Translations under genes and position numbers: made by a program
Assembly (NCBI GenBank): GCA_016871615.1
Contig: VHCX01000020.1
Coordinates: forward strand, 1 to 55,244
From: Verrucomicrobiota bacterium
GTDB lineage: Bacteria > Verrucomicrobiota > Verrucomicrobiia > Limisphaerales > UBA9464
Length of the DNA stretch: 55,244 bases
Reading direction: 5' to 3'
The notes under the pieces: generated by a model
The model's database searches: none
Told to the model about the DNA's origin: nothing
Seen by the model: only the letters and a program-made list of their open reading frames with translations
Shown here: positions 29,896-45,188 of the stretch, in pieces
How the letters are laid out: each line of letters begins with the position of its first letter
How positions within the stretch are numbered: position 1 is the stretch's first letter

Positions 29896-30831
29896 TCAAT
29901 GCCGCAGCACGTGCCGGAGGTAGAGGTACATGAGGGGGGCGTTGAAGAGCAGGCTGTCGAGCAGGTCGAGGATGCCGCCGATGCCCGGGAAGAACCGGCC
30001 GGAATCCTTCACGCCCGCCTCGCGCTTGAAGAGCGACTCGATGAGGTCGCCCACCACCGCGGCCACGCTGAGGACCACGCCCAGGACCGCCGCGTGGAGC
30101 GGGGTCATCCCGGCCAGGCGATCGCCCAATAGCGCCGCCAGGCCCAGCGAGCACGCCGTGGAGACCACCACCGCGCCAGCGAATCCCTCCCAGGTCTTCC
30201 CGGGGCTGATGCGCGGGATCATCTTGTGCCGGCCGATCAGCGAGCCCGTGCAGTAGGCGCCCACGTCGCTGAACTTGGTCACCACGATGAAGTAGAGGAC
30301 GTAGAAACGCCCATCCACGCCGGGGAAGAAATTGATCTTCTGGATGAAGTTCAAGAGCCACGGCACGTACATCAGGCCCAAGAGGGTCATGGAGATGGCC
30401 GTCATGGCGTTGCCCTGGTTCTTCTTCGACACGAACTCCCGCAGGCACAGGCCCAGCACGAAGAGCACCAGCACCGCCGACTCGAAATCGGCCGCGCGCG
30501 ACGGTTGGCCCGAGAACCGCGACCCGGGCTGGTACACCGTGAGGTAAAAGAACGTCGCCGCCATCAGCAGCAGGCCGTTGGCCAGTCCCCAGAAGCGGAA
30601 GCACACGAACCCGCGCCGCTCGACCATGCCGTAGAACTCGACCAAGCCGGTACCGGCCAGGAGCATCATCAGGCCCAGGAACACGTAGCTGCGGATGAAG
30701 GCGTCGGTCGAGAAGATGGCCGCCAGGACGATCGACCACAGGAAGAGCGTGCTGCCCAGGCGTCGCAGGAAGACCTGCCCCTTGGACAGGGCGGCGGCGG
30801 GAGCGGGCGCGGGCACCGGGACGTCGGCCAT
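29896..30831 (-). CDS. cdsA: Phosphatidate cytidylyltransferase
   Basis: Integral membrane enzyme making CDP-diacylglycerol from phosphatidate and CTP, central to phospholipid synthesis. 311 residues with about eight hydrophobic helices. The CDS signature is present: VTKFSDVGAYCTGSLIGRHKMIPRISPGKTWEG, and SVAAVVGDLIESLFKREAGVKDSG with FFPGIGGILDLLDSLLFNAP near the C-terminus, including the metal-binding Asp residues. The start at 30831 (MADVPVP) gives a short cytoplasmic tail; the longer open frame has no homology. It is divergent from the multiheme cytochrome gene with a 189-base gap. Undecaprenyl synthase, its usual partner, is not adjacent. Confidence 0.95.
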   Translation of the reverse strand: MADVPVPAPAPAAALSKGQVFLRRLGSTLFLWSIVLAAIFSTDAFIRSYVFLGLMMLLAGTGLVEFYGMVERRGFVCFRFWGLANGLLLMAATFFYLTVYQPGSRFSGQPSRAADFESAVLVLFVLGLCLREFVSKKNQGNAMTAISMTLLGLMYVPWLLNFIQKINFFPGVDGRFYVLYFIVVTKFSDVGAYCTGSLIGRHKMIPRISPGKTWEGFAGAVVVSTACSLGLAALLGDRLAGMTPLHAAVLGVVLSVAAVVGDLIESLFKREAGVKDSGRFFPGIGGILDLLDSLLFNAPLMYLYLRHVLRH

Positions 30832-31020
30832 GCGGCAAACCTGACGCCAACCCGCCCGGGTCATCAATCCCGGCGTCGATCCAGGTTGCCAACCACCTTC
30901 CCTCCGATGACGGGGCCCGGATCCGCCCGGCGGGTGGGACCGACCGGCAGTTCGCCCCCGGAAACAGCCGGTTCGCCCCCGGAAACTGGAAAAAAACCAA
31001 ACCAGGTCCTCCATTCCCCG

Positions 31021-33960
31021 ATGGTCCCGGGAGATGATGAACCGAAGGAAACCCCGCCGCCGAAGGCCCGGCGCTACGTGCGCGCCATCGGCCCCCGGCT
31101 TCGCTGGGTGCTGAACCTCGTCTGGGTGCTGCTGGCCCTGTTGGGGGCCAACTCGGTGTACCTGCTCACCGTCACCTTCATGACCTGGAAGGATCGGGCC
31201 AGCGGGGTGAGCTACCAGAACTACGCCTACCAGATCCAGTTCCTGGCGCATCTCATCCTGGGGCTGCTCTTCGTGGTGCCGTTCCTCGTCTTCAACTGGG
31301 TCCACATCGCCAACACCTGGAACCGGCCCAACCGCAAGGCCGTGTACGTGGGCTACGCGCTCTTCGCCATCAGCCTCGCGGTGCTCATCTCAGGCGTGGT
31401 GCTGGTGCGCTTCGACGGACTGGAGTGGATGCAGGTCAAGAGCGAGTCGAGCCGATCGGTGGCCTACTGGGCGCATGTCATCACCCCCCTGCTCTGCGTC
31501 TGGCTCTACCTGCTGCACCGGTTGGCCGGCCCGCGCATCCGCTGGAAGGTCGGGATCAGCTGGGGCGCGGCCGTCGCCGCGGCCGTGGTCGTGCTGGTGG
31601 CCTTCCACCGGCATGATCCGCGCGTGTGGTCGGCCAAGGCCCCGGCGTCGGGCGAGAAGTACTTCATGCCCAGCAGTTCGCGCACGGCCAATGGCAAGTT
31701 CATCCCGGCCAAGTCCCTGATGAACAACGAGTACTGCCTCGAGTGCCACCCGGACGTGTTCGATTCCTACATCCACTCGGCCCACAAGTTCAGCTCGTTC
31801 AACAACCCCTTCTACCTGTTCAGCATCAAGCAGACCCGCGAGGTGGCCATGAAGCGGGACGGCTCGGTGCAGGCCTCCCGGTGGTGCGCCGGCTGCCACG
31901 ACCCGGTGCCCTTCTTCTCCGGCGCGTTCGACGATCCCGAGTTCGACATGGTGAAGCACCCGACCTCGCAGGCCGGCATCACCTGCGTCACCTGCCACTC
32001 CATCACGCATCTGGAGGGCGCCGAGAAGGGGCCCATCGGCAATGGCAACTACACCATCGAGGAACCGGTCCACTACCCCTTCGCCTTCGCGCCCACCAAC
32101 TCGCTGGCCTACTTCGTCAACAAGCAGCTGGTGAAGGGCAAGCCGCAGTTCCACAAGGAGACCTTCCTGAAGCCCTTCCACAAGACGGCCGAGTTCTGCT
32201 CGACCTGCCACAAGGTGGGCATCCCCTACGCGGTCAACCACTACAAGGAGTTCCTGCGCGGCCAGAACCACTACGATTCGTACCTGCTCTCGGGCGTGTC
32301 GGGGGTGAATGCGCGGTCGTTCTATTATCCCGACAAGGCCAAGGCCAATTGCGCCGAGTGCCACATGCCGCTGCAGGAATCGGCCGATTTCGGGGCCAAG
32401 AAGTACGGCACCAACGGGTTCCTGGCCGTCCACAGCCATGCCTTCCCGGGCGCGAACACGGGTGTTCCAGCCAAGGTGCTGCCGCCCGGGCCCGAGCAGA
32501 AGAAGGCAATCGCCCGTCAGCAGGACTTCCTGAAGGACTGCATCCGGGTGGACCTCTTCGGCGTCAAGGAGGGGGGCACCATCGATGCGCCCCTGATGGC
32601 GCCGCTGCGCCCCACCCTGCCCCGCCTCAAGCCGGGCAAGACCTACCTTCTGGAGACGGTCGTCCGAACGGTGAAGCTGGGCCATCCGCTCACCCAGGGC
32701 ACCGTCGACTCCAACGAGATCTGGGCCGACGTCTCGGTGACCGACGGCCAGGGCCGGGTCGTGGGCCGTTCCGGGGCCACCGGACGTCACGGCGAGGTAG
32801 ACCCGTGGTCCCACTTCCTCAACGTCTACATGCTCGACAAGGACGGCAACCGCATCGACCGGCGCAACGCCCAGGACATCTTCACGCCGCTCTACAACAA
32901 CCAGATCCCGCCCGGCGCGGCGCATGTGCTGCACTACCGGCTCACCGTGCCCGAGACCCAGCGCTCGCCGCTCACGGTCGAGGTGAAGGTGAACTACCGG
33001 AAGTTCGACACGATCTACTTCAACTACACCTACGCCTCGAACTACGTGAAGGGCGGGCCGTTTCTGGTGACCAACGACCTGCCGGTCACCGTGATGGCGT
33101 CGGACCGGCTCGAGTTCGAGATCGAGGGCGGATCCGGAGTCACGAGCACCAACGCGCCCTCCAAGATTCCGGAGTGGCAGCGCTGGAACGACTACGGCAT
33201 CGGCCTGTTCCTGAAGGGCGACAAGGGCAGCGAGAAGGGCGAACTCATCCAGGCGGCCGAGGCCTTCGGTCGGGTCGAGGCGCTCGGCCGCGCCGACGGC
33301 CCCCTCAACCTCGCGCGGGTGTTCTTCAAGGAGGGCCGCCTCGACGACGCCGTGGGTGCCCTGCAGCGCGCCAACGACCCCAAGCGTTTCGACCCGCCGG
33401 GCAACCGCTGGACCATCGCCTGGCTCAACGGCCTGGTGAACAAGCAGAACGGGTTCCTCGACGAATCCATCCGGCAGCTCACGAGCATCCTGGAAGACCG
33501 CTACCCGGAGCTGGAGAAGCGCGGGTTCGATTTCAGCCGCGACTACGAGGTGATCAATGAACTGGGTCAGACCCTGTTCGAGCGCGCCAAGATGGAGCGC
33601 GCCAATCCGGAGCGGAAGCAGGAGCACCTGCGGGCCGCCGCGGCGCGCTTCGAGCGCACCCTGGCCATCGATCCCGAGAACCTCACGGCCCACTACAACC
33701 TGGGCCTCATCCACGCCGCCCTCGGCGACGCGGCCGCCAGCGAGCGCCACCGGAAGCTCCACGAGCGCTATCGGCCCGACGACAACGCGCGCGACCGCGC
33801 CGTGGCCATCGCCCGCCGCAACCACCCGGCCGCCGACCACGCCGCACAGGCCATCGTGATCTACGACCTGCAGCATCCGCAGAGCCTCTCCCTGGCCGGA
33901 TCGCTGGCCGACTCCGATGCACCTGTGGCCCCGCCGGCAAACGCCACGGCGGCTCGCTGA
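31021..33960 (+). CDS. Membrane-anchored pentaheme cytochrome c with TPR tail
   Basis: A 979-residue redox protein. The first 205 residues contain about five hydrophobic helices, the first near 30-55, which anchor it and resemble a cytochrome b561-type membrane module. The exported part has five CxxCH heme c sites: CLECH (about 240), CAGCH (290), CVTCH (322), CSTCH (393) and CAECH (444), spaced as in cytochrome c554/NrfB-like multiheme folds. Residues about 530-710 are beta-rich (LGHPLTQGTVDSNEIWADVSV). From about 725 to 940 there are tetratricopeptide repeats (AEAFGRVEALGRADGPLNLARVF and similar). The downstream FG-GAP/ASPIC gene starts 58 bases after the stop. Role inferred: electron transfer across the inner membrane to a periplasmic or outer-membrane complex. 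Confidence 0.85.
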   Translation: MVPGDDEPKETPPPKARRYVRAIGPRLRWVLNLVWVLLALLGANSVYLLTVTFMTWKDRASGVSYQNYAYQIQFLAHLILGLLFVVPFLVFNWVHIANTWNRPNRKAVYVGYALFAISLAVLISGVVLVRFDGLEWMQVKSESSRSVAYWAHVITPLLCVWLYLLHRLAGPRIRWKVGISWGAAVAAAVVVLVAFHRHDPRVWSAKAPASGEKYFMPSSSRTANGKFIPAKSLMNNEYCLECHPDVFDSYIHSAHKFSSFNNPFYLFSIKQTREVAMKRDGSVQASRWCAGCHDPVPFFSGAFDDPEFDMVKHPTSQAGITCVTCHSITHLEGAEKGPIGNGNYTIEEPVHYPFAFAPTNSLAYFVNKQLVKGKPQFHKETFLKPFHKTAEFCSTCHKVGIPYAVNHYKEFLRGQNHYDSYLLSGVSGVNARSFYYPDKAKANCAECHMPLQESADFGAKKYGTNGFLAVHSHAFPGANTGVPAKVLPPGPEQKKAIARQQDFLKDCIRVDLFGVKEGGTIDAPLMAPLRPTLPRLKPGKTYLLETVVRTVKLGHPLTQGTVDSNEIWADVSVTDGQGRVVGRSGATGRHGEVDPWSHFLNVYMLDKDGNRIDRRNAQDIFTPLYNNQIPPGAAHVLHYRLTVPETQRSPLTVEVKVNYRKFDTIYFNYTYASNYVKGGPFLVTNDLPVTVMASDRLEFEIEGGSGVTSTNAPSKIPEWQRWNDYGIGLFLKGDKGSEKGELIQAAEAFGRVEALGRADGPLNLARVFFKEGRLDDAVGALQRANDPKRFDPPGNRWTIAWLNGLVNKQNGFLDESIRQLTSILEDRYPELEKRGFDFSRDYEVINELGQTLFERAKMERANPERKQEHLRAAAARFERTLAIDPENLTAHYNLGLIHAALGDAAASERHRKLHERYRPDDNARDRAVAIARRNHPAADHAAQAIVIYDLQHPQSLSLAGSLADSDAPVAPPANATAAR

Positions 33961-34018: not shown

Positions 34019-35884
34019 ATGCCCCAGAAACCGAACGGCCCGAACGAACCCGAGGAGTGGGTCGATTCCGACGACCGCGCCATCCGCACCGGACTCCGAT
34101 GGTCTCTGGTGGCCCTGATCGGTCTGGGGGTGGTGGGAGTAGGGGCCTTCTTCGCCCTGCGCAAAACCGCAGGACCGGCCAAGGTGCAGGTCACGCCCCT
34201 GGCGGCTCCGCAGACCGTGCAGACCGCCCAGAAACTCACCCTGCCGAAGGTGCCGTTCTCCGAGGTGGGCGAGGCGGCGGGCCTGAGGTTCCGGCACTTC
34301 ACGGGGGCGGCCGGCGAGAAACTCCTGCCCGAGACCATGGGAGCCGGCGCAGCGTTCTTCGATGCCGATGGCGATGGCGACGCCGATCTGCTCCTGGTCA
34401 ATGGCAACCGCTGGCCCTGGGATGCCCAGGGTGCGGCCTCGCCCGGAAGCGCCCTGTACCGCAATGACACCCCTCCCGGCGGCGCCATCCGCTTCACCGA
34501 CATCTCGGCGGGCTCAGGGCTCGAGGCCCCGCTTTACGGCATGGGTGCGGCGGTGGGTGACTATGACAATGACGGCCGGCCCGACGTGTTGATCACCGCC
34601 GTCGGCGGGGCCCGGCTCTTCCACAACGAAGGGGACGGACACTTCAAGGAGGTCACCACCACGGCCGGTGTCGGTGGCAAGCCGGACGACTGGAGCACCG
34701 CGGCCACCTGGTTCGACCTCGACAACGACGGCGACCTCGACCTCGTCGTGGCGCACTACGTGAAATGGTCCCGGGCGATCGACGCCGAGGTGGGCTACAA
34801 GATCGACGGGAGCACCCGGGCCTACGGTCCGCCCATGAACTTCCAGGGCACCTTCCCGAGCCTCTACCGCAACGAGGGCGGCGGGCGCTTCACCGACATC
34901 AGCAAGGAGGGCGGCGTGCAGGTCACCAACCCGTCCACCGGTGTCCCAGCGGCCAAGTCGCTCGGCGTGGTCGCCACGGACTTCAATGGCGACGGGCTCA
35001 CCGACCTCATCGTGGCCAACGACACGGTCCAGAACTTCGTCTTCGAGAACCAGCGCGACGGCCGCTTCAAGGAGGTGGGGGCGCTGACCGGCATCGCCTT
35101 CGACAGCTACGGCAACACGCGCGGAGCCATGGGCATCGACGCCGCCCGCTTCACCGACGACGGCAAACTGGGCATCGCCATCGGCAACTTCGCCAACGAG
35201 ATGACGGCCCTCTACGTCGGCGGGTCCACGGCGGGGCTTTTCACCGACGAGTCCATCTCCTGGGGCGTGGGCCCGGCCAGCCGGCTGCCCCTGAAGTTCG
35301 GCGTGTTGTTCCTCGACTGGGACCTGGACGGGCGTCTCGACCTGCTCAGCGTCAACGGCCATCTGGAGGAGGAGATCACCAAGGTCCAGGCCAGCCAGAA
35401 ATACCGTCAGCCGGCCCAGTTGTTCTGGAATGCGGGCGCGGACGGCTTCGTGCCGGTGGGGCCGGAGCAGGCGGGAGCGGCTCTCTTCACCCCGATCGTG
35501 GGCCGCGGCTGCGCCCAGGCCGACCTCGACGGCGACGGCGACGACGACCTGCTCTTCACCCAGGCCGGCGGCGCGCCGCTGCTGCTGCGCAACGACCGCC
35601 CCGCCGGAGGCCGTTGGGTGCGGCTCAAGCTAGTCGGCACGCGGTCCAATCGGGATGCCCTCGGGGCGACCGTGCAACTCAAGGCCGGCGGCAAGACCCA
35701 GTGGCGCACCGTCACGGCCAACCGCGGCTACCTGAGCTCCAGTGCCCTGCCCATCACCTTCGGTCTGGGCGAGGCCACGGCCGTCGAGTCCATCGAGATC
35801 ATCTGGCCCGGCGGCCAGCGCCAGAGTGTGCCTGCGGCCCAGGCCCAACCCGGAGCCGTCACGGAGATCCGCCAGGCGCCCTGA
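34019..35884 (+). CDS. CRTAC1-type protein: FG-GAP repeats plus ASPIC/UnbV domain
   Basis: A 621-residue protein. A single hydrophobic helix at about 27-48 acts as an uncleaved anchor. It is followed by FG-GAP/VCBS-like calcium-binding repeats with clear Asp-rich loops (DADGDGDADLLL, DYDNDGRPDVLI, DLDNDGDLDLVV, DFNGDGLTDLIV, DWDLDGRLDLLS, DLDGDGDDDLLF), forming an integrin-like propeller. The C-terminal ASPIC/UnbV domain is visible as RLKLVGTRSNRDALGATVQL and IEIIWPGGQRQSVP. The gene follows the pentaheme cytochrome by 58 bases and is probably cotranscribed. Such pairs recur in PVC and Acidobacteria genomes, but their function is not established. A surface-assembled complex with the cytochrome is plausible. 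Confidence 0.85.
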   Translation: MPQKPNGPNEPEEWVDSDDRAIRTGLRWSLVALIGLGVVGVGAFFALRKTAGPAKVQVTPLAAPQTVQTAQKLTLPKVPFSEVGEAAGLRFRHFTGAAGEKLLPETMGAGAAFFDADGDGDADLLLVNGNRWPWDAQGAASPGSALYRNDTPPGGAIRFTDISAGSGLEAPLYGMGAAVGDYDNDGRPDVLITAVGGARLFHNEGDGHFKEVTTTAGVGGKPDDWSTAATWFDLDNDGDLDLVVAHYVKWSRAIDAEVGYKIDGSTRAYGPPMNFQGTFPSLYRNEGGGRFTDISKEGGVQVTNPSTGVPAAKSLGVVATDFNGDGLTDLIVANDTVQNFVFENQRDGRFKEVGALTGIAFDSYGNTRGAMGIDAARFTDDGKLGIAIGNFANEMTALYVGGSTAGLFTDESISWGVGPASRLPLKFGVLFLDWDLDGRLDLLSVNGHLEEEITKVQASQKYRQPAQLFWNAGADGFVPVGPEQAGAALFTPIVGRGCAQADLDGDGDDDLLFTQAGGAPLLLRNDRPAGGRWVRLKLVGTRSNRDALGATVQLKAGGKTQWRTVTANRGYLSSSALPITFGLGEATAVESIEIIWPGGQRQSVPAAQAQPGAVTEIRQAP

Positions 35885-35937: not shown

Positions 35938-37005
35938 TCACCGATAGGCCGAGACCGGCTTCGGAACCACACCGAGTTCGGCGTAGTTGAAACCGGCCTC
36001 CAAGGGCTTGTAAGTGCCCACGATGTCCACGCTCCGTCGGGCATCGATGGCCGCCTCCATGCCCAATCCCCAGTAGACGGCGTTGATGACCAGGCGGCGC
36101 AGATCGGCGCATTGAAGGTCGTGGGCACTGCCCATGGTGGACTGGAACACGCGGGCCCGGCGACCGTTGCGGGTCTCCCAATGCTTGAACCAGGCCACCG
36201 GCAGCGGTTCGAGCTTGGGATTGGGGGCATCGGTGGGTTTGCGCCCCAGGAGCGGCTGACCCCAGACCAAGGCCGTGCAACCCGCCGGCAACTGCCCGCC
36301 TTCCGGGTAGGTGCGGTACACATCGGAGTTGCCCCAGAGGTCCTTCACCCCGCGCAAGATCGGGTGGTCCTTCATCTCCGGAACCACGATCCCCCGGGTC
36401 GAATCGGCATGCCATTGGCCGTGATGGTTCATGAAGCTGCCGCCCAGCACGTCGTTGCCCCAATCCACCGGCTTGCCGTGGATCTTGTAGGGCAACGCCC
36501 CGTGGAACCCGTGGTTTCCTGTGCGCAGCGAGAGGATCGGGCGGCCCGAGTCGATGTAGCCCACGATGAGTTCGCGCTCCGCCATCGGCAGGGTCAGCAG
36601 GCGCGGATAGAACAGGACGAGGTCGGCCTTCGCCAGCAGTTCCAGGCCCGGGATGTGATGTTCGCGGAAGGGTTTCCCCTTCTCGGGATACACCGGCATC
36701 GTGGGATCCACCTCGCCCTTCTCGTTCACCGCGAAGAGCACCGTGCACTCGAAGCCATGATGCGTGCTGAGGATCTTCGCCATCATGGGCATGGACTGTT
36801 CGCTGCGGTACTCCTGATCGGCCGCGATCAGGACCACCCGCTTGCCCCGGCCGGGACCTGATTTCCCCGGATAGCTCAGCCATTGCTCGGAATCCGCCGC
36901 GTGACCTGGGCCCAGGCCGTGGGAGAACCACCAGGCTAGGACGGCCCACAGGCGGAATGCGGAGCCCGGCTTCAGGCCAAGGGCGCTAGTTCTTGGGGAT
37001 TTCAT
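35938..37005 (-). CDS. Secreted ThuA-like (class I glutamine-amidotransferase fold) protein
   Basis: A 355-residue protein, last gene of a three-gene leftward operon. Its start overlaps the end of the dehydrogenase-like gene by 20 bases. An N-terminal hydrophobic stretch (LWAVLAWWFSHGLGPGHA) acts as a signal peptide. The body resembles ThuA: KRVVLIAADQEYRSEQSMPMMAKIL, LLAKADLVLFYPRLL, GGSFMNHHG and TMGSAHDLQCADLRRLVINAVYWGLG near the C-terminus. ThuA proteins act in sugar (trehalose/trehaloside) utilisation, though the biochemical role remains unclear. In PVC bacteria they often accompany PVC heme proteins and propeller dehydrogenases, as here. Confidence 0.85.
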   Translation of the reverse strand: MKSPRTSALGLKPGSAFRLWAVLAWWFSHGLGPGHAADSEQWLSYPGKSGPGRGKRVVLIAADQEYRSEQSMPMMAKILSTHHGFECTVLFAVNEKGEVDPTMPVYPEKGKPFREHHIPGLELLAKADLVLFYPRLLTLPMAERELIVGYIDSGRPILSLRTGNHGFHGALPYKIHGKPVDWGNDVLGGSFMNHHGQWHADSTRGIVVPEMKDHPILRGVKDLWGNSDVYRTYPEGGQLPAGCTALVWGQPLLGRKPTDAPNPKLEPLPVAWFKHWETRNGRRARVFQSTMGSAHDLQCADLRRLVINAVYWGLGMEAAIDARRSVDIVGTYKPLEAGFNYAELGVVPKPVSAYR

Positions 37006-38530
37006 TGACCGTGTAGTAGGCCTTGGAGTGCACCAATCCCCCGCCGTCCTTGGATCGGATGCCGGACAGGTCGAACTCGTGGACGTGGTCCTCGACCACC
37101 CGGCCCAGGGTGATCTGCGCCGAGCGCCCGTCGGCCGCAGGCACCGCCGACAGGATCTTCGACGTGGTGTGGTCGACCTCCGGACTGCCGTAGCCTCCAT
37201 GGTACACATGGGTGTAGGTGACGATCCGGTACGAGGCGATGTCGGCGGCGGTCCGGGGATCCACCGGCGCGGTGAAGGTGATGCGGAACCCGTCTTTGCG
37301 GAGGTTGATCTCCTGGATCTCGAAGGGCGTGACCCCATTCCAATCGATGCGCTGCAGGGCGAAGGGTTCCTTGCCGCGCACCGGCCACTGCCGACTGGTG
37401 GTGAAGCCGCCGGCGATCAACTGGCCCTTCGGCGAGAACTCCACGTTCATGATCCCCGTCGCCAATCCCTCGCGGAAGGGATAACAGGCCCCCTGCCACA
37501 CCCCGTTGATCTGCTCGGTGGTGGCCCGCATCACCAGGCTCAGGCTGTAGTCGCCCAGGAAGATCTGCCCCTGGAACGGGCCGAACTTCCCGCCGGTCGT
37601 GTCCACGCGGAACCCGGAGATCGATCGGCCCATCTTGATGTACGGGAACTTCACGGCTGGCGGCACCAGTTCGGGCACCCGCTTCTTCTCCACGCCCATG
37701 CGGGAGTCGCTCTTCGGTTCCAGCGCGGGAGCCGCCACGCCGGGGGCGAAGGGATACCAGTTGTAGCTGGCCGGATGGCCCAGGAACCCACCGGGTTTGA
37801 GGTGCTTGAGCGAACAGCATCCGTTCCACGGGCCCTGGCTCTCGATGGCGAACATCACACCGGCGGCATTGGTGCCCACCCCGCCCGGGCTGCGCAGTCC
37901 GCTGCAAATCGGGATCATTTTCCCGGCCGGCGTGACCTTCACCGCCCATCCCCGGAAGAGGTTGTGGGACTCGTAGGAACCGCTCAGCCCCAGCGCGACC
38001 CAGACGTCTCCCGCCGGGTCGTGCTTCGAAGCGAAGGCGAACTCGTGCCCCTCGGCATAGCCCCAGCCGTTGCTCAAGGTATCGTAGCGGTCGGCCACCC
38101 CGTCCCCGTCGGCATCGGTGATGCGGGTCGCCTCGGCCCAACTGGTGGCGGTCATCGCGCCCTCCCGCCAGGACAACGAGAAGATCTCATCCTGCCCGCT
38201 GGCGAAGAGGTGGTAGTCGGGCCGCGGCGGTGAATCGAAGGCACCCCGCACGAAGTAGATGTCCCCACGGCGCGTGCCCACCGCCAACCGCCCATCGGGC
38301 AGGATCTCCAGCCCGCCGGGTTGCAGCGGGACGGTGCTGGGGATCGGAATGCGGACGATCGGGTAGTACTTGGCCTCCTCCTGGGCCGTGCCCCACATCG
38401 CGCCAAGGTCTTCCTCGGCGCTGAGCCACGGCATGCGAACCATCATCGCCACGGCCATCGCCCAAGCCATCGCGAGCTGCGGGGCCACCCGCGTCGCTCC
38501 TCGGATCCAGGTCGTTCGGGGGGTCACCAT
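36986..38530 (-). CDS. Secreted propeller dehydrogenase-like protein
   Basis: A 514-residue exported protein. The start overlaps the stop of the upstream cytochrome gene in ATGGTGA, so the two are translationally coupled. The signal peptide is long, with a hydrophobic AMAWAMAVAMMVRMPW. The body is a six-bladed propeller like soluble quinoprotein dehydrogenases or the PVC membrane-bound dehydrogenase domain: PGGLEILPDGRLAVGTRRGDIY, RITDADGDGVADRYDTLSNGWGY, SGLRSPGGVGTNAAGVMFAIESQG, GFLGHPASYNWYP. The last 120 residues are an immunoglobulin-like sandwich. No heme site is present in this protein, so electrons would have to pass to the upstream CxxCH protein. The substrate is unknown, probably a sugar or derivative. 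Confidence 0.8.
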   Translation of the reverse strand: MVTPRTTWIRGATRVAPQLAMAWAMAVAMMVRMPWLSAEEDLGAMWGTAQEEAKYYPIVRIPIPSTVPLQPGGLEILPDGRLAVGTRRGDIYFVRGAFDSPPRPDYHLFASGQDEIFSLSWREGAMTATSWAEATRITDADGDGVADRYDTLSNGWGYAEGHEFAFASKHDPAGDVWVALGLSGSYESHNLFRGWAVKVTPAGKMIPICSGLRSPGGVGTNAAGVMFAIESQGPWNGCCSLKHLKPGGFLGHPASYNWYPFAPGVAAPALEPKSDSRMGVEKKRVPELVPPAVKFPYIKMGRSISGFRVDTTGGKFGPFQGQIFLGDYSLSLVMRATTEQINGVWQGACYPFREGLATGIMNVEFSPKGQLIAGGFTTSRQWPVRGKEPFALQRIDWNGVTPFEIQEINLRKDGFRITFTAPVDPRTAADIASYRIVTYTHVYHGGYGSPEVDHTTSKILSAVPAADGRSAQITLGRVVEDHVHEFDLSGIRSKDGGGLVHSKAYYTVNEIPKN

Positions 38531-41460
38531 TGGTAGTCGAGGGTGAGGGTGGATCGCCCGGCCGGCGGATTCAGCGGAATCAAAACCTCCCCAGAGGCTC
38601 CGCGCCGCACGCGGGCCGAAGCATCGCCCACCAGCCGCAGGCGCAACGAATCGACGGTGAACTCCCGACCGGAGACCTCGGTGACCTGCTGGCCTGCGGC
38701 GGCCCGGAACTCGAACGGACGACCCGCCGCCGGGGCCGTGAAGGTCATCGTCCGGCGGAAGAACGGCTTGCCCTGGGGATCCAGCCGGTCCTCGAAGGAA
38801 TCCTCCACCAGCACCTCTTCGTAGCGGTACCGGAAGGTCGGGCGGCGCTGGGCATCGAGATGATAGCCCAAGAACTGGTAACCGTGATCTTGCGGGAAGA
38901 GGTGGTTGGCCTTGCCCTTGCGGGGCCACGCGGCCTCGGGCGATTCGAGCCGGTGGAACGGAATGCCCCGCGGCAGCGGGATCTGGTCGGTGCCCCGGGG
39001 ATGGAAGTGCCCGGCATCGATGCTGACGAACGAGCCCTTCCAAAGCATCCGCAGGGCCATCTCGCCGGAGTCGAAGGCGAGGTGGATGCGCTCCGGATAC
39101 CCGACGGCGATCCCCCGGTAACCCACCGGGCTTTGGCCACGGCACACTTCGGTGACATCCCCCACGCGCAGCTCGCGCGTCTGGCGGGACAGCCCCAGGG
39201 GCTTCTTGGCCCGCTCGCCGTCGGCCAGATACACCCACAGCGCCTCGATTTGTCGGGCGGCGTCGCCCTCCAGCACGTCGGTCCGGGGCGAACGACCGTC
39301 GGGCCAATACGCCGGCATGATGACCGTGGGGTTGAACCGCGCGGGCTCCCGCAGGTAGAGGTGGAACCAGTTCTTCTGCAGCCGATGAGACACGGTCGCC
39401 AGGTCCACCGCGCCCATCTCGCCGGTCTTCTGGCCGTTGAAGAGGTGGCAGGCAATGCAACTGAAGCCCTCGCTGCCGACCAGTCCGTGCCCCACGCGCC
39501 GGAGCAGGGCCTCGTCGGTGGCGGCTGGAACGCGGGCCGCCTCCAACCGATCGACACGGGCGAACAAATCCACCAGGTGGCCGACCTGCGCCTCGCCATA
39601 CTGGGGCATGCTGGCGTCGAGATAGGGCCGCGGCCGTCGGCCTCGCAGCAGCACATCGCGCAACCCCTCCGACGTCAGCTTGGCCCCGACGTGGTCCAAA
39701 GTCGGCGGCAGGCGACCGGCGTCGCCGAGACCGGGTTCGGATCCGGTGAAGAGGCCCTTGCGCTCGGCGACCACCCCGCCCACCTCCGACCGTTCGTGGC
39801 AGGCGATGCAGTGGAAGGTCACCAGCGTTTTCTGGATCCGGCGCGACGGCTCGGTTTCGGGGTGGTTCGCGATCGTCAGCGCCCTTGTGATTTGCGCGCG
39901 CTGATCCGGGCTGAGGCCATACTGCGGCCACCTGCCCACCCCCTCGCTCAAGCACCCCCGCCCCGCCCGCAGACCGGCCCACGCGGGTGCCGCCGGCGAT
40001 CGGAGTTGCAGATCGTCGTGGCAGTGGGCGCAGCCCCGCATCGCGAACGCCTCGCGCCCTTGGGCCGCCAGCGCCGGATCCACCCGGAAGGGTTCGAGGG
40101 CGGCGATGGGCTCCGGCGACACCGACAGCATGGACTCCGGGAGTGGGCCGCGCGGGAACCCGGGCCCCTCCATTTCAAGAGAGAACCGGGGATCATGCCC
40201 CGTGTGGAAGTAGGTGAGCCGGATCGGCCGCCACCCGGAGTCCAGGTCGAGCTCGACCTCCCACGACTTCACCCCGCGCCCGTCGCTGGGTTCCTGCTGC
40301 GCCAGCGAATGGCCGTCCACGGTCAGGTCGCCCCCGTTCATCGTCAGGAAAAACCGGTACCGGCCGCGGGTCGCGACCTTCATCCGCCCCTCGTAGCAGA
40401 CCGCCGTGTGGTGCCCCACCTGCCCGAGGCTCTTCAGGGCGAAGTCACGGACATGGCCCGCACGCTCGGCCCGGACCTCCTCGCTGGCGAGGCCTTCCCA
40501 GACGTGCCCGCGGTAGAGGGTGTAGGCCAAGGCCCCGGGCACGCGGGTGCGCCGCAGCAGGTGATGGGCGATGCGTTCGGCATCCTGGGGGCTCAGGCGC
40601 AAGTCCGGCATCCGGCCCGACGGACGGCTCACGTGCGGTTGCTGGAGAAACTCCGACAGGCTTCGGAAACTGTACTTCGATTCGAGCGCCCCCAACCGCA
40701 CCGAACTCCGGGCCAGCGGCCCCGACTCGAGGCGCTTGGCAGTCCCAGCATTCCCAGTATCACCAGCAGTCCCAGCAGTCCCAGCAGTCCCAGCATCACC
40801 AGCACCACCAGCACCACCAGCACCACCAGCACCACCAGCATCACCAGCACCACCAGCATCACCAGCGTTCGGAACCTTCCCGGTGCTCCTCGGGTTCCTC
40901 TGGCCCCGCATCCCCTCCTCCGTCCCATTCGCTCCATCGCTCTCGAGGGATGATTCATGGCAGGCCACGCACCCTCGCGACCGGAACAACCGCCGACCAT
41001 GCTCCGCCGCCACCGCGTCCGGAGGCTCCAGCGAGAACCGGTTCTCGCGCAGCGACATCAGGAAGTGGGTGATCGCCCGGGCCGTCTGGCGACGTTCGTC
41101 CGGCGGCAGCATCCCCAGCACATCCGGCATGGTGCTGCCCGGGGAGGTCGCGTGCGGGTCGGCGATGAACCGCTCCAGGTGGGCCGGGTTCACCCGCGAA
41201 CCGACCGCCGCCAGCCGGGGCGCCTGTTTCGACTGAGCCTTCAGAGACCCCTCCGCCGCATGGCAGGCCACGCAGTTCAGTTCCTCGATCAGCACCCGCC
41301 CGCGGAGTTCCGCATCGATCGTAGCCGTGGCCAACCCCGGGATGATGGGCTGGGCCCAGACCCCGAGCACCATCCCCCACCCCACGAGCACGGCCGCCGC
41401 GCGTCCCCAGGCCAGGCGCCAAGCCACCTGGAACATTCTGGACGTCACCTGGGCTCGCAT
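38524..41460 (-). CDS. Secreted multi-heme cytochrome c with PA14-like domain
   Basis: A 978-residue exported protein, first gene of the operon. The signal peptide ends near VWAQP (about residue 37). Five CxxCH sites are seen: CVACH at 63 and 164, then CAHCH, CIACH and CIACH further on (about 475, 545, 665), each with cytochrome-like flanks (GRRLFRSRGCVACH). Between the second and third there is a Gly/Ala tract (about 199-240) and then a PA14-like module (LAYTLYRGHVWEGLA, VDGHSLAQQEPSDGRG, RPIRLTYFHTG), a possible carbohydrate-binding domain. The C-terminal third is a beta-rich region. The protein probably takes electrons from the coupled dehydrogenase-like protein while attached to glycan. 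Its promoter region contains a MITE-like element. Confidence 0.82.
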   Translation of the reverse strand: MRAQVTSRMFQVAWRLAWGRAAAVLVGWGMVLGVWAQPIIPGLATATIDAELRGRVLIEELNCVACHAAEGSLKAQSKQAPRLAAVGSRVNPAHLERFIADPHATSPGSTMPDVLGMLPPDERRQTARAITHFLMSLRENRFSLEPPDAVAAEHGRRLFRSRGCVACHESSLESDGANGTEEGMRGQRNPRSTGKVPNAGDAGGAGDAGGAGGAGGAGGAGDAGTAGTAGTAGDTGNAGTAKRLESGPLARSSVRLGALESKYSFRSLSEFLQQPHVSRPSGRMPDLRLSPQDAERIAHHLLRRTRVPGALAYTLYRGHVWEGLASEEVRAERAGHVRDFALKSLGQVGHHTAVCYEGRMKVATRGRYRFFLTMNGGDLTVDGHSLAQQEPSDGRGVKSWEVELDLDSGWRPIRLTYFHTGHDPRFSLEMEGPGFPRGPLPESMLSVSPEPIAALEPFRVDPALAAQGREAFAMRGCAHCHDDLQLRSPAAPAWAGLRAGRGCLSEGVGRWPQYGLSPDQRAQITRALTIANHPETEPSRRIQKTLVTFHCIACHERSEVGGVVAERKGLFTGSEPGLGDAGRLPPTLDHVGAKLTSEGLRDVLLRGRRPRPYLDASMPQYGEAQVGHLVDLFARVDRLEAARVPAATDEALLRRVGHGLVGSEGFSCIACHLFNGQKTGEMGAVDLATVSHRLQKNWFHLYLREPARFNPTVIMPAYWPDGRSPRTDVLEGDAARQIEALWVYLADGERAKKPLGLSRQTRELRVGDVTEVCRGQSPVGYRGIAVGYPERIHLAFDSGEMALRMLWKGSFVSIDAGHFHPRGTDQIPLPRGIPFHRLESPEAAWPRKGKANHLFPQDHGYQFLGYHLDAQRRPTFRYRYEEVLVEDSFEDRLDPQGKPFFRRTMTFTAPAAGRPFEFRAAAGQQVTEVSGREFTVDSLRLRLVGDASARVRRGASGEVLIPLNPPAGRSTLTLDYQW
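40741..40870 (-). repeat. 9-bp microsatellite inside the cytochrome gene
   Basis: About fourteen imperfect 9-base units (variants of CAGCACCAC, CAGCATCAC, CAGCAGTCC on the + strand) lie in tandem. In the gene frame they encode a collagen-like run of Ala-Gly-Gly, Ala-Gly-Asp and Ala-Gly-Thr units, so unit gain or loss stays in frame. The run forms a flexible linker between the second heme site and the PA14-like module. Confidence 0.9.
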
Positions 41461-41524
41461 GACCCAAAGTCAGGAAGAACCCCGACCGGAAGTCACCCGC
41501 AAATCACCGAAGGGGTCGCGAAGA

Positions 41525-41648
41525 GGTCGGTCCTCACTATTGACACAAGACCTTGCATTTGTTTCCGGGGTTGCCCCTGGATTCCGGGGCGGTCACTGGG
41601 GCTACGAACCGGTCGGCAGGGGCGTTGTGTCAATAGTGAGGACCGACC
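41525..41648. mobile_element. MITE-like element with perfect 24-bp terminal inverted repeats
   Basis: The 24 bases at 41525-41548 (beginning GGTCGGTCCTCACTATTGAC) recur as an exact reverse complement at 41625-41648, enclosing 76 bases with no coding capacity; total 124 bases. No clear target duplication is visible. It lies between the divergent starts of the cytochrome and beta-helix genes, so it may supply or interrupt promoter sequence. A half-copy with two mismatches in 23 bases is at 53191. Short elements of this shape are typical of non-autonomous repeats moved by a transposase in trans, which is not encoded here. Confidence 0.75.
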
Positions 41649-41703
41649 CCTTTTTGGAGGTCGAATGCCTGCCACCGACGGCGAGTCTGGAACCGCCAAA
41701 ATC

Positions 41704-44700
41704 ATGCACCCCGTGACTTCCCCAAGACCCCTGGCCGGGGTCGCCCTGCTGATCCTCTGGCTTGCCACCACGATGCGGGGCGACGACGCGGTGGTGATCT
41801 GGCACTCGCAGCCGGTGCGACCCGGCCAGAGCGTGCTGGTCTATGGCGATCGGCTGGTCGAGGCCCGCGTCGTCGGGGCCCGGCTGAAGGATGCCCCGGC
41901 GGGCCTGCCCGGGGCCGACCGCACAACCCGGCGCGAGGGAAAGAGCCTTCGCCCCCTGACCGTGCTCCAACCGCGGGAACGGGCCCTGAAGGCCATCCTC
42001 CCCGACGAGGCCCCCGGGGTGTACGCCCTCGAGGTCTCCGCCGGCGGGCGGACCCAGCGCGTGCTGGTCAATGCCCCGCAGGTGTGGTGGGCCCGCGGAG
42101 CCGGGCAACTCGACGCGGTGGCCGGCTCGGACCTGCGGGTGTTCGGGCTCGGCCTCGGCTGGCGCGGGGTCCACGAAGCCCTGGCCGGCGAGCCACCGCG
42201 CGGGACCCGGACCCGCATCGTGCTGATGGGCGCCCGGACGGTCGAGCTGGCCACGGCCGACGCGGACCTGTACTCGGCCCGGGCGCCGCGTCCCGGGGCC
42301 GGACGGTCGAGCTGGCCACGGCCGACGCGGACCTGTACTCGGCCCGGGCGCCGCTTCCCGGGGACCTTCCGCCCGGCGACTACGCGGTGTGGGTGCACAA
42401 TGGCTGCGGTGGGCCAGAGGCTTGGGGACGCTGCCCTGAACCGCTGCGCGTCCGCCAACCCGCCCCATGGCCCGAGCGCGTGCACAACGTGCTCCGGTTC
42501 GGGGCGCGGGGCGACGGGGTCGCCGACGACACCGACGCCGTCCAGGCCGCGCTCGACGCGGCGGGATCCTCCGGCGGGGGGATCGTCCTCTGCCCCGCCG
42601 GGCAGTACCGCTTCAACCGCCCGCTCCGGATGCCGCGACGGGTGCTCCTGCGGGGCGAGCACCGGGACAAGTCCCTGCTCTACTGGAGCAACCGGCACTT
42701 CGCGCGGCTCCGGGGAATCGTCCACGGCGAGGCGCAGTTCGGGCTGGAGGACCTCACGATCTGGTACGCCGGGGCCGAGCGGGGCATCGAGAACATGGCC
42801 GAGGTGGAGGGCAAGAGCCTCTACTCCACGGCGAACCGACCCGAGTGGTGGCAGGAGGGCGACATCGTCCTCCGGCGTCTGGTGATCCGCTGGAGCCCGT
42901 ACGCGGCGCGGCCGGGATGGGGACAGCTCTCCGACACCATCGAGCTGACCCGGCAACTCAACTTCGAATCGCTGGACGCCGCCGGGAAGGGCGTCGCGGT
43001 GTGGCTCTGCGGCCGGGACATCCGCGTCGAGGACTGCGACATCTACTCCGGCGGGTTCCCGCTGCTCCTGGCCTTCCACTCCGACGGGAGCCTGGTGCGC
43101 AACAACATCCTACGGACCGGACGCGGCGGCCTGGTCTGGGCCCAGCGGGGGCGCAAGGTGATCTGGGAGGGCAACCAGATGCTGGGCGCGGACAACCTCT
43201 CCCGGGCCGGATGGAGCACCAAGGCCCACCCCTACTACGACCAGGTGTATTTCCGGGGCAACACCGTGGCGTTCGCCCAGTCGGCCGACTACGAGATCGT
43301 CGGCTCGGACGGGGCCTCCCCCGTCTACTACGGCGGGGTGGAGGCGGGCCGGGAGCGGGCCGTCCGCCTGCGCAAACCGGTGCGGGCGTGGCCCTTCGAG
43401 CCCGAGGGACACCTGGCCTTCGTCTTGGCGGGCCGGGGCAAGGGGCAGGCCCGCACGGTGGTCCGGGGATCCTCCCAGGAGATCGAGGTGGATCGCCCCT
43501 GGGACGTGGCCCTCGACGAAAGCTCGCTGATCGGGATCAACCACAGCCTGCGCCAGTGGCTGATGGTCGGGAACCTCATCGCCGACGGGGATTCGATGCA
43601 GATGTACGGGCTGAACCACGAGGTGGTGTTCGCCGAAAACCGGCTCGAGCGCGTGGGAGGCAGCTCGGAGGCGGCCCTTCGATTCCTGGCCTTCCAGCAC
43701 ACCAGCGACGGGCCCGAGGCGGCCGAGCCGTCCTTCTTCTCGCAGATGCTGGGCAACCGCCTCGTGGCCCACCGCATGGATCTGCGCCGGTTCGAGTCCG
43801 GCACCGCCGCCATGGAACTGAGCGGGGGCGATGTCGATTCGCTGGGCCAGGCCGAGACCCCCTGCCTGATGAATGCCGCCGTGCTCCGGGGCAACCACAT
43901 CCAGGGCGGCAAGATCCTGGTCTCGGTGGGCTCGCAGCGCCCCTTCCGTGCCGAGGACCTGCTGATCGAGGACAACCGGATCGACGAGTCGCCGGTCGGG
44001 ATCGAGATCGGTGCGCGAACCGCCGGGGTGATGCTGCGCCGCAACACCCTGGCGGCCGTGGTGGAACCCTTGGCCGGTGAGGGCATCGCCGGGGCCTGGA
44101 TGGAGCCCGGCGCCAGGTCGCGCCACTGGCTTGGTTCGCTGGAGGGCGTGGTCCGCCGCCTGGACGCCGGGGCGTGGCCGGCCATCGTCGCCGACCTGCC
44201 CCGCGAACACCGTCCCGACCCGGGGACCGACCCGGACGCCCAGCGGGTGGCCCTGCAGCGGGCGGCGGCGGCGAAGGTCACGCGGACGCTCGCGCCGCCC
44301 CACCATCCGGACCTTGCCCGCGTGCTGTGGGGGGCGCGGGTCGAGGTACGCGCCGACCCCGCGATGGAGTCGCTGCTCGACTCGGGCTCCGGGGGCGAGG
44401 CGGCGCTGCGCGTGCAGGTGCACCCCGGCGGGCCCGACGTGCCGGACTGCCGGGTGGAGGTCGACTGGCCCCGCGGCTGGACGGCCCTCCCGGTCGACGG
44501 TCCCACCCTGGGCGACCGGGGCGCGGCCCTCCGGCTGCCCGTCCGCCTGCCGCCGGGCACCTTCGGATCGTTCAGCTTCCCGGCCCGCGTGACACTCCGG
44601 GTCGGCGACGCGCCGGTGTCCTGGCAGGAGACCGTGTCGGTGGGCAGCGGCTCGGTGGGCGATTGGCGCGTGCTGGGGCCGATGCCCGCCGACGTCCTGA

Positions 44701-45188
44701 CCCGGGCCGCGACGCGGCTCCAACCGACCCGTGCCGGGGCCTGGCGCCTCGACGAACCGGTCGACCTCGGCCCGGACGGTCCCTGGACCTGGCGATCCGT
44801 GGCGAGGACCCACCGACTCGACCCCTCGGGCCTCCCGGGCGGCATCGCGGCCACCCCGGACGGGATCGTGGGAGCCTTCATGCTCGCCTCCTTCGTGGCC
44901 GGTCAGGATCTCTGGGCGGAGCTGACCGCCGCCACCGGCGCCCCAGGCGGGGGCCTGGAGATCCAGGTGCATCTGGATGGCCGGGAACTGTGGGACCTGC
45001 GCCTTGGCCGCGAGACCTGGTCGCCGAAGCGCCTCCCCCTCAAGGTCTCCCAGGGACGACACTGGCTCCTGGTCACCGGCCGAGCCCGCCGAGCCGCCCC
45101 GGACATCTCCCTTTCCATCCGGGAACTCGGCGTGCCGACCGGAGGCCGCATCCACCCCGTGCCCGTGGGCCCCGCCCCACCGCCCTGA
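41704..45188 (+). pseudogene. Secreted beta-helix (pectate-lyase-like) protein, frame broken by 65-bp tandem duplication
   Basis: An exported right-handed beta-helix protein, about 1140 residues if restored. The first frame, from an ATG at 41704, encodes a signal peptide (LAGVALLILWLATTMRGDD) and an Ig-like N-terminal domain up to about 42300. The second frame carries the rest: VWVHNGCGGPEAWGR, then the pectate-lyase-3-type start RFGARGDGVADDTDAVQAAL, beta-helix coils to about 44100, and C-terminal sandwich domains ending at 45188. The frames are separated by two near-identical 65-base copies (42235-42299 and 42300-42364); deleting one restores a single frame. It shares architecture with the gene at 49452-52106. 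Substrate probably an acidic plant or algal polysaccharide (inferred). Confidence 0.8.
42235..42364 (+). repeat. 65-bp tandem duplication causing a frameshift
   Basis: Two copies beginning CGGACGGTCGAGCTGG, 65 bases each, differ at only two positions. Because 65 is not a multiple of three, the second copy shifts the frame. Both copies encode RTVELATADADLYSARAP in different frames. Confidence 0.95.

Follow-up and report, generated by a model that had tools for sequence, protein, structure and literature searches.

The window analysed here, a stretch of 55,244 nt from contig VHCX01000020.1 of a Verrucomicrobiota bacterium, carries on its minus strand three overlapping genes that we call A, B and C. 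The original prediction described them as a unit, with overlaps of 7 and 20 nt, in which a multi-CxxCH protein with a PA14-like module, a secreted dehydrogenase-like propeller without haem and a ThuA-like protein would together oxidise sugars. Coordinates, lengths and overlaps agree with that description, and the features of the locus are the following:

38524..41460, minus strand: gene A, 978 aa, a secreted-looking c-type cytochrome with five CxxCH motifs, a PA14-fold domain and a DUF6797-like C-terminal beta domain
36986..38530, minus strand: gene B, 514 aa, ATG start, a haem-free propeller protein of the sGDH/Asd fold
35938..37005, minus strand: gene C, 355 aa, ATG start, a divergent ThuA-like protein
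38524..38530, minus strand: A/B overlap of 7 nt, holding the stop of A and the start ATG of B
36986..37005, minus strand: B/C overlap of 20 nt, in which the ATG of C overlaps the stop of B
41260..41274, minus strand: haem 1, CVACH, A residues 63-67, likely Met ligand M111
40957..40971, minus strand: haem 2, CVACH, A residues 164-168, likely Met ligand M284
40123..40539, minus strand: PA14-fold domain, A residues ~308-446, from AF2 strands and Foldseek, with limits taken from secondary structure
40018..40032, minus strand: haem 3, CAHCH, A residues 477-481, without a conserved axial Met
39952..39954, minus strand: Cys503 of A, invariant, candidate axial ligand of haem 3
39796..39810, minus strand: haem 4, CIACH, A residues 551-555, likely Met ligand M618
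39445..39459, minus strand: haem 5, CIACH, A residues 668-672, likely Met ligand M715
38527..39198, minus strand: C-terminal beta domain of A, DUF6797-like, from a Pfam PF20601 match below cut-off and the model
37334..38401, minus strand: propeller of B, residues ~44-399, from the AF2 model and VIA
38045..38047, minus strand: His162 of B, aligned to the catalytic His of sGDH/Asd in 34/34 sequences
37892..37894, minus strand: Arg213 of B, aligned to sGDH Arg228 in 34/34 sequences
36989..37333, minus strand: C-terminal beta-sandwich-like domain of B, residues 400-514, from the AF2 model

Judged by eye on the translations, all three proteins begin with a signal-peptide-like N-terminus. No promoter-like site was found at the operon, and terminator-like matches were not above those in shuffled sequences. 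Upstream of A, positions 41521-41652 form a strongly folding inverted repeat (z -7.5) with arms of 28 nt and 76 nt between them, the 24-nt core of which has 61 genomic copies when up to 3 mismatches are allowed and none in the reversed control. A Y1_Tnp gene of the same genome (G000:C6:52501-52836) is flanked by two inverted copies of this repeat, and the element upstream of A looks like a REP/REPIN-RAYT system placed in the operon leader. On the plus strand, the trio is bordered by a gene for a FG-GAP/UnbV_ASPIC protein convergent with C (34019-35884) and, on its other side, by one for a pectate-lyase-like protein (42084-45188, PF12708); a long ORF with several CxxCH motifs in its translation lies at 30226-33960 on the same strand.

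The five CxxCH motifs of A start at residues 63, 164, 477, 551 and 668, and Pfam matches cytochrome c domains in the protein, whose AF2 model has a mean pLDDT of 83. Among 59 A sequences, the likely Met ligand M111 is kept in 56, and M284, M618 and M715 are each kept in 59/59. Within the segment expected to hold the ligand of haem 3, Met residues are scattered (12/59) and Cys503 is the sole invariant candidate (59/59, and 34/34 in the 34-sequence set). With no conserved Met and Cys503 alone invariant there, this residue is thus, on alignment grounds, the candidate axial ligand of haem 3, and haem 3 could be an entry or catalytic site. The segment between the CxxCH of haem 2 and its Met holds an in-frame 9-bp minisatellite (40739-40866, A residues ~175-246) that encodes a collagen-like Gly-x-Ala run; this region is 72 residues long here, against 7 in every one of the 58 other A sequences compared.

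The PA14-like module announced for A was borne out by three kinds of comparison. Its model matches the PA14 sugar-binding domain 6x8a (Foldseek E 2.4e-5, TM by target 0.61), the 34-sequence profile of A matches the PA14 chain 6qdi at E 6e-31, and Pfam PA14, which finds nothing in A itself at E up to 10, matches the A paralogue of the same genome at E 4.6e-18. Going by the modelled fold, the domain may bind sugars. The A proteins encoded beside more distant B genes have ~150-200 residues fewer and match from about residue 455 onwards, with nothing in the PA14 region; the PA14 domain is therefore not universal. The DUF6797 family PF20601 scores below its cut-off of 24.9 bits both in A (E 0.039, 15.2 bits) and in the A paralogue (E 8.3e-5, 23.8 bits).

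Neither B nor C contains a CxxCH motif, and the claim of a haem-free and dehydrogenase-like propeller stands for B: its AF2 model (mean pLDDT 88) consists of a propeller and a C-terminal beta domain, and the propeller has the six-bladed fold of PQQ sugar dehydrogenases. Indeed, B superposes on 3a9g with a Foldseek E of 1.9e-12 and a VIA Z of 29.5 (2.7 Å over 298 residues, 17% identity), and VIA ranks 1-6 are all PQQ aldose/glucose dehydrogenases (Z 27.4-29.5), unrelated propellers scoring ~22-24. At the level of sequence, PF07995 has no match in B at E up to 10, and a search of the PDB with the B profile returned no PQQ enzyme and no useful relative. TIGR02604 reaches E 8e-4 in B (18.9 bits against a cut-off of 122.2) and DUF7133 15 bits, below its cut-off of 27. 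The B paralogue passes the DUF7133 cut-off (35 against 27) and scores 42.7 bits with TIGR02604 (E 4.6e-11), below that cut-off. By hhalign, B aligns over its propeller with a PF07995-type profile built from relatives (probability 70.9%, E 3.8e-5); set directly against a canonical Asd-like sequence, the profile of B gave 1.4%, that is, no match.

The residues of the putative cofactor site were read through this intermediate profile. The sGDH numbering of the profile was assigned from motifs recognised by eye and from the usual residue numbers of sGDH. The assignment was checked against the residues named in the available text of PMC6881789. In each of 34 B sequences, H162 falls on the catalytic His (His144 equivalent) and R213 on Arg228. 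By the same indirect alignment, the Asn229 equivalent is Ser in 34/34, the Lys377 equivalent is Ser, Gly or Cys (31/2/1), and the equivalents of Arg406/408 are Gly (34/34) and Leu, Met or Ile; R353 of B is conserved as 31 Arg and 3 Lys out of 34. According to the accessible part of PMC6881789, AA12 enzymes have no Lys377 equivalent and use a different Arg, Lys377 thus being dispensable, and E. coli makes use of PQQ supplied from outside. In view of the AA12 case, a rearranged PQQ site in B is conceivable. As to the origin of the cofactor, the genome under study has no PqqC match and a PqqE match only below cut-off, and both proteins exceed their cut-offs in the same 3 of the 97 genomes sampled from the order, one of which (G019) is alone in having B as well. 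PqqC over cut-off is missing from 64/65 B-positive genomes, two of which (G027 and G050) show weak matches; the search found no match in 14 control genomes and has the 3 positives as its only control. It is possible that the host imports PQQ.

The conservation of the locus was followed in named GTDB contigs, where the 80 loci considered are the best 80 of 577 relatives and thus the closest ones (B identity 65-88%), and in the 97-genome sample of the order, from which 40 loci and a further 20 single-chain loci were hand-picked among the matches listed. Within the best 80 of 577, A adjoins B in 66 of the 74 loci that have enough upstream sequence; 3 others have A further upstream, and 5 have no A in the fetched stretch. 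Upstream A on the same strand as B is found in 19/19 loci of the same family, and adjacent A in 34 of the 37 B-bearing loci hand-picked from the order sample. Other genes separate A and B in a few loci, namely PSCyt/DUF1553 and DUF1501 genes in L091 and, by eye on the sequence, prolyl-oligopeptidase-like genes in L092 and L094. Homologues at E <= 0.001, paralogues counted, occur for A in 71, for B in 65 and for C in 80 of the 97 genomes. A close B (at least 74% identity) is present in just 9/18 congeners, and the module is therefore accessory. The genome under study has a paralogous A-B pair on another contig (C3, L071 6451-10742); its B is 51% identical and starts with a GTG that overlaps the stop of A by 4 nt, and no C lies beside it within the fetched stretch.

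In most pairs the overlap of A and B is conserved to the nucleotide. Of 70 adjacent pairs from the best 80 of 577, 59 have the first usable ATG of B at precisely -7 relative to the stop of A, 65 have an ATG at the overlap position in any frame, and all 70 have Trp as the last residue of A; the -7 overlap recurs in 17/19 loci of the same family. As Trp followed by a stop yields an ATG only if the preceding codon ends in A, that codon was compared with synonymous usage in the same A and B genes. The codon has A as its third base in 64/66 pairs against 21.4 expected, 4 of the 70 rows (TCA, CAC, CGT and CGC) being omitted; if the two Arg rows are taken for misses, the figure is 64/68. The rows are related, so that the result is strong but carries no exact probability. 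It follows from this excess that the start codon is seemingly kept beyond what the protein end of A alone would dictate, and, as judged from codon choice, the start of B within the end of A seems to be maintained in its own right.

The association of C is looser. In the best 80 of 577, C adjoins B in 43 of the 76 loci with enough downstream sequence, lies elsewhere in the locus in 3 and is absent from 30; where both sides can be assessed (n=70), 38 loci have both A and C beside B, 25 have just A, 3 just C and 4 neither. Adjacency of C falls with the identity of B, from 6/6 at 80% and above to 21/29 at 75-80%, 16/29 at 70-75% and 0/12 at 60-70%. C is downstream in 17/19 loci of the same family, and in several genomes it is located elsewhere than beside B. 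Among the matches listed, a C of at least 60% identity occurs in 14 genomes, and 13 of these carry a B of at least 56% as well; in the fourteenth (G038), A is cut by a contig end. The 20-nt B/C overlap, present in 8/44 loci from the best 80 of 577 and in 8/17 same-family loci, is a local feature; elsewhere C usually starts 3-55 nt past the end of B. The conservation proposed as a check of the original prediction therefore holds for A and B, which stay together with a conserved overlap, and only by half for C. The unit that emerges is a real, conserved two-gene system, A-B, with C as a facultative third gene.

The assignment of C to ThuA is right in kind but short of the family threshold: PF06283 matches it at E 1.4e-6 with 29.2 bits, below the curated cut-off of 33.4, and the C profile found no PDB relative by sequence. 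In three loci (L064, L065 and L069), a single ORF of 851-883 codons directly downstream of A, starting 11 nt inside its end, encodes a ThuA region and, after it, a B region; the ThuA parts of the two that were searched exceed the PF06283 cut-off of 33.4 (L064 45.7, L069 36.5). In addition, single chains of ~800 aa carry DUF6797 ahead of a B-like propeller (L118, L189, L199, L208). Taken together, the ThuA-B fusions, the DUF6797-propeller chains and the DUF6797-like end of A suggest a physical association of the parts. A linkage of the genes beyond mere nearness is thus sustained by the A-B adjacency and overlap and by these fusions, but the prediction of the trio as one unit is not, since C stands beside B in little more than half of the assessable loci from the best 80 of 577.

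Many genomes of the order encode haem-free DUF6797-propeller single chains (L190-L208). One is encoded in the genome under study on contig C5 (L189, 5804-8221, plus strand), and in genome G088 (L199) a ThuA gene directly follows the DUF6797-propeller gene. No CxxCH occurs in any of the 20 hand-picked single-chain proteins, and a haem gene is a direct neighbour in 0/20 of their loci against a background of 3/106 genes, with crude gene calling in both. Propeller and cytochrome c are joined in one chain in L150, which has the order DUF7133-HEAT-cytochrome c and a GSDH match below cut-off. A published counterpart is Lac161_ORF7, which is encoded on a Verrucomicrobia cosmid and annotated as TIGR02604-HEAT-cytochrome c. 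Once purified, it released glucose from lactose with a Km of 1.8 mM and a kcat of 13.2 per s, as given in the available text of PMC5342196. This is the sole published assay of a related propeller-cytochrome protein, or paper naming TIGR02604, DUF7133 or DUF6797, that was found in a search largely confined to literature outside subscription.

In rhizobia, 3-keto sugars are the substrates of ThuA proteins. A chain encoded in the genome under study on contig C100 (L001, 868-2256, minus strand) joins a canonical ThuA domain to a DUF1080 domain (PF06439) on its C-terminal side, the family that Pfam names 3keto-disac_hyd. DUF1080 was considered as a pathway partner of the trio and rejected: it occurs in 6/80 of the named loci (best 80 of 577) and 2/40 of the order loci against ~5.3 and 3.2 expected from its 20 matches in the genome under study, counts near expectation that therefore give no enrichment around the trio. 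The L001 chain links ThuA, not the trio, to 3-keto chemistry.

These observations lead us to propose that the A-B pair probably works on sugars in the periplasm. The reading that we favour, with a probability of roughly 0.45, is that A and B of Verrucomicrobiota form a periplasmic dehydrogenase-cytochrome module acting on sugars or glycosides, with C as a ThuA accessory. Sugar or glycoside chemistry is likely; oxidation is our best single guess as to its nature, at a little under even odds. The substrate, a mono- or oligosaccharide that the PA14 domain of A may hold, would enter the pocket of the six-bladed propeller of B, where His162 would take a proton and from which electrons would pass into A, B and A presumably forming a complex. 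The odd haem 3, with no conserved axial Met and the invariant Cys503 as candidate ligand, may belong to this path, followed by the four putative His/Met-type haems and then soluble carriers. C might afterwards process the oxidised product. The cofactor could be PQQ that is scavenged and bound in an altered site, or a different acceptor. The oxidation of sugar by the propeller, as originally predicted, is supported by the fold that B shares with PQQ sugar dehydrogenases; counting against a redox reading are the changed PQQ positions, the scarcity of PqqC (below cut-off or absent in 94/97 genomes), the haem-free relatives (20/20 hand-picked proteins without CxxCH) and the hydrolysis of lactose described in the accessible part of PMC5342196.

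This last report is the starting point of a rather unlikely alternative, in which B would be a glycoside-cleaving propeller like Lac161_ORF7, and A an accessory that binds glycan and handles the electrons of another step. The release of glucose from lactose, the weak TIGR02604 match of B together with the better one of its paralogue, and the abundance of haem-free propeller relatives are all consistent with it. However, a score of 18.9 against a cut-off of 122.2 makes the relation distant, the activity is known from one report and a glucose-release assay in the available text of PMC5342196, and the tight conservation of B with a five-haem protein is left unexplained. It also appears unlikely that B is a true PQQ enzyme whose rearranged site is filled from the surroundings: the best structural matches are PQQ-Asd, His162 and Arg213 are kept, Arg353 is conserved, and the AA12 enzymes and E. 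coli, as presented in the accessible part of PMC6881789, offer precedents for another Arg and for outside PQQ, but the equivalents of Asn229 and Arg406/408 are lost in 34/34 sequences by indirect alignment and, in the order sample, 64/65 B-positive genomes have no PqqC that reaches the cut-off.

A module unrelated to sugars, with A as a respiratory or sulphur-type cytochrome and B as a structural propeller, seems quite improbable. A haem near an invariant Cys resembles SoxA-type haems, A exceeds the cut-off of NCBIfam SoxX TIGR04485 (65.8 against 61 bits), and the haem-free relatives show that the propeller fold is used without redox partners. The SoxX score, however, is summed over two stretches of a multi-haem protein, SoxB is over cut-off in 0/97 order-sample genomes (with weak matches in 7), and the trio includes no sulphur gene; a SoxX function for A was rejected on the first two counts. 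Within the redox readings, it would be a long shot that B combines the sGDH fold and catalytic His without any PQQ site, that the Met-less haem 3, with its invariant Cys503, docks onto it and takes the hydride electrons directly, a haem thus standing in for the lost quinone, and that ThuA handles the oxidised, perhaps 3-keto, product.

Many propeller and cytochrome proteins of Verrucomicrobiota are orphans in function, tied to carbohydrate turnover by context alone in the available text of PMC5615132. Among them, A-B is a well-defined and conserved two-gene target with a start overlap that seems to be maintained, and it lends itself to joint expression and assay. If the pair does oxidise sugars without canonical PQQ, it would represent a new cofactor solution for a textbook enzyme fold; hydrolysis of glycosides by it would help to account for the activity reported for Lac161_ORF7.

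No description of the trio was found in the literature, a weak argument for novelty since most subscription papers lay outside the search. The PQQ aldose dehydrogenases and sGDH (3a9g, 2ism, 3das, 2g8s, 1c9u) share with B the fold, the catalytic His and one Arg, whereas B has no PF07995 match, altered equivalents of Asn229, Lys377 and Arg406/408, and a five-haem cytochrome as its neighbour. C belongs to the same superfamily as the ThuA family PF06283, in which its fused relatives pass the cut-off; it differs in falling below that cut-off and in being placed with a cytochrome-propeller pair. The PSCyt1-3 cytochromes with carbohydrate-binding modules of freshwater Verrucomicrobia, for which a role in carbohydrate metabolism was proposed, resemble A in joining haem c to PA14-type modules (PMC5615132, available text). 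In contrast, A has no match to the PSCyt1-3 families of Pfam at E up to 10, and the accessible part of PMC5615132 describes no propeller or ThuA partner.

The closest relatives are the PVC propeller-cytochrome proteins (TIGR02604/DUF7133, HEAT and cytochrome c), exemplified by Lac161_ORF7 in the available text of PMC5342196, which belong to the same propeller-haem c superfamily of Verrucomicrobiota. While these are single chains with HEAT repeats, B is a separate protein below both family cut-offs, and A has a PA14 and a DUF6797-like domain. The closest precedent in composition is the fungal CcPDH, which, according to the accessible parts of PMC4332668 and PMC6881789, likewise brings together a cytochrome, a six-bladed sugar dehydrogenase and a carbohydrate-binding module (AA8 cytochrome b, AA12 propeller and CBM1). 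CcPDH is one chain with haem b and a demonstrated PQQ, whereas the trio consists of separate proteins with five c-type haems, a PA14 domain, a ThuA-like partner and PQQ as at most a putative cofactor.
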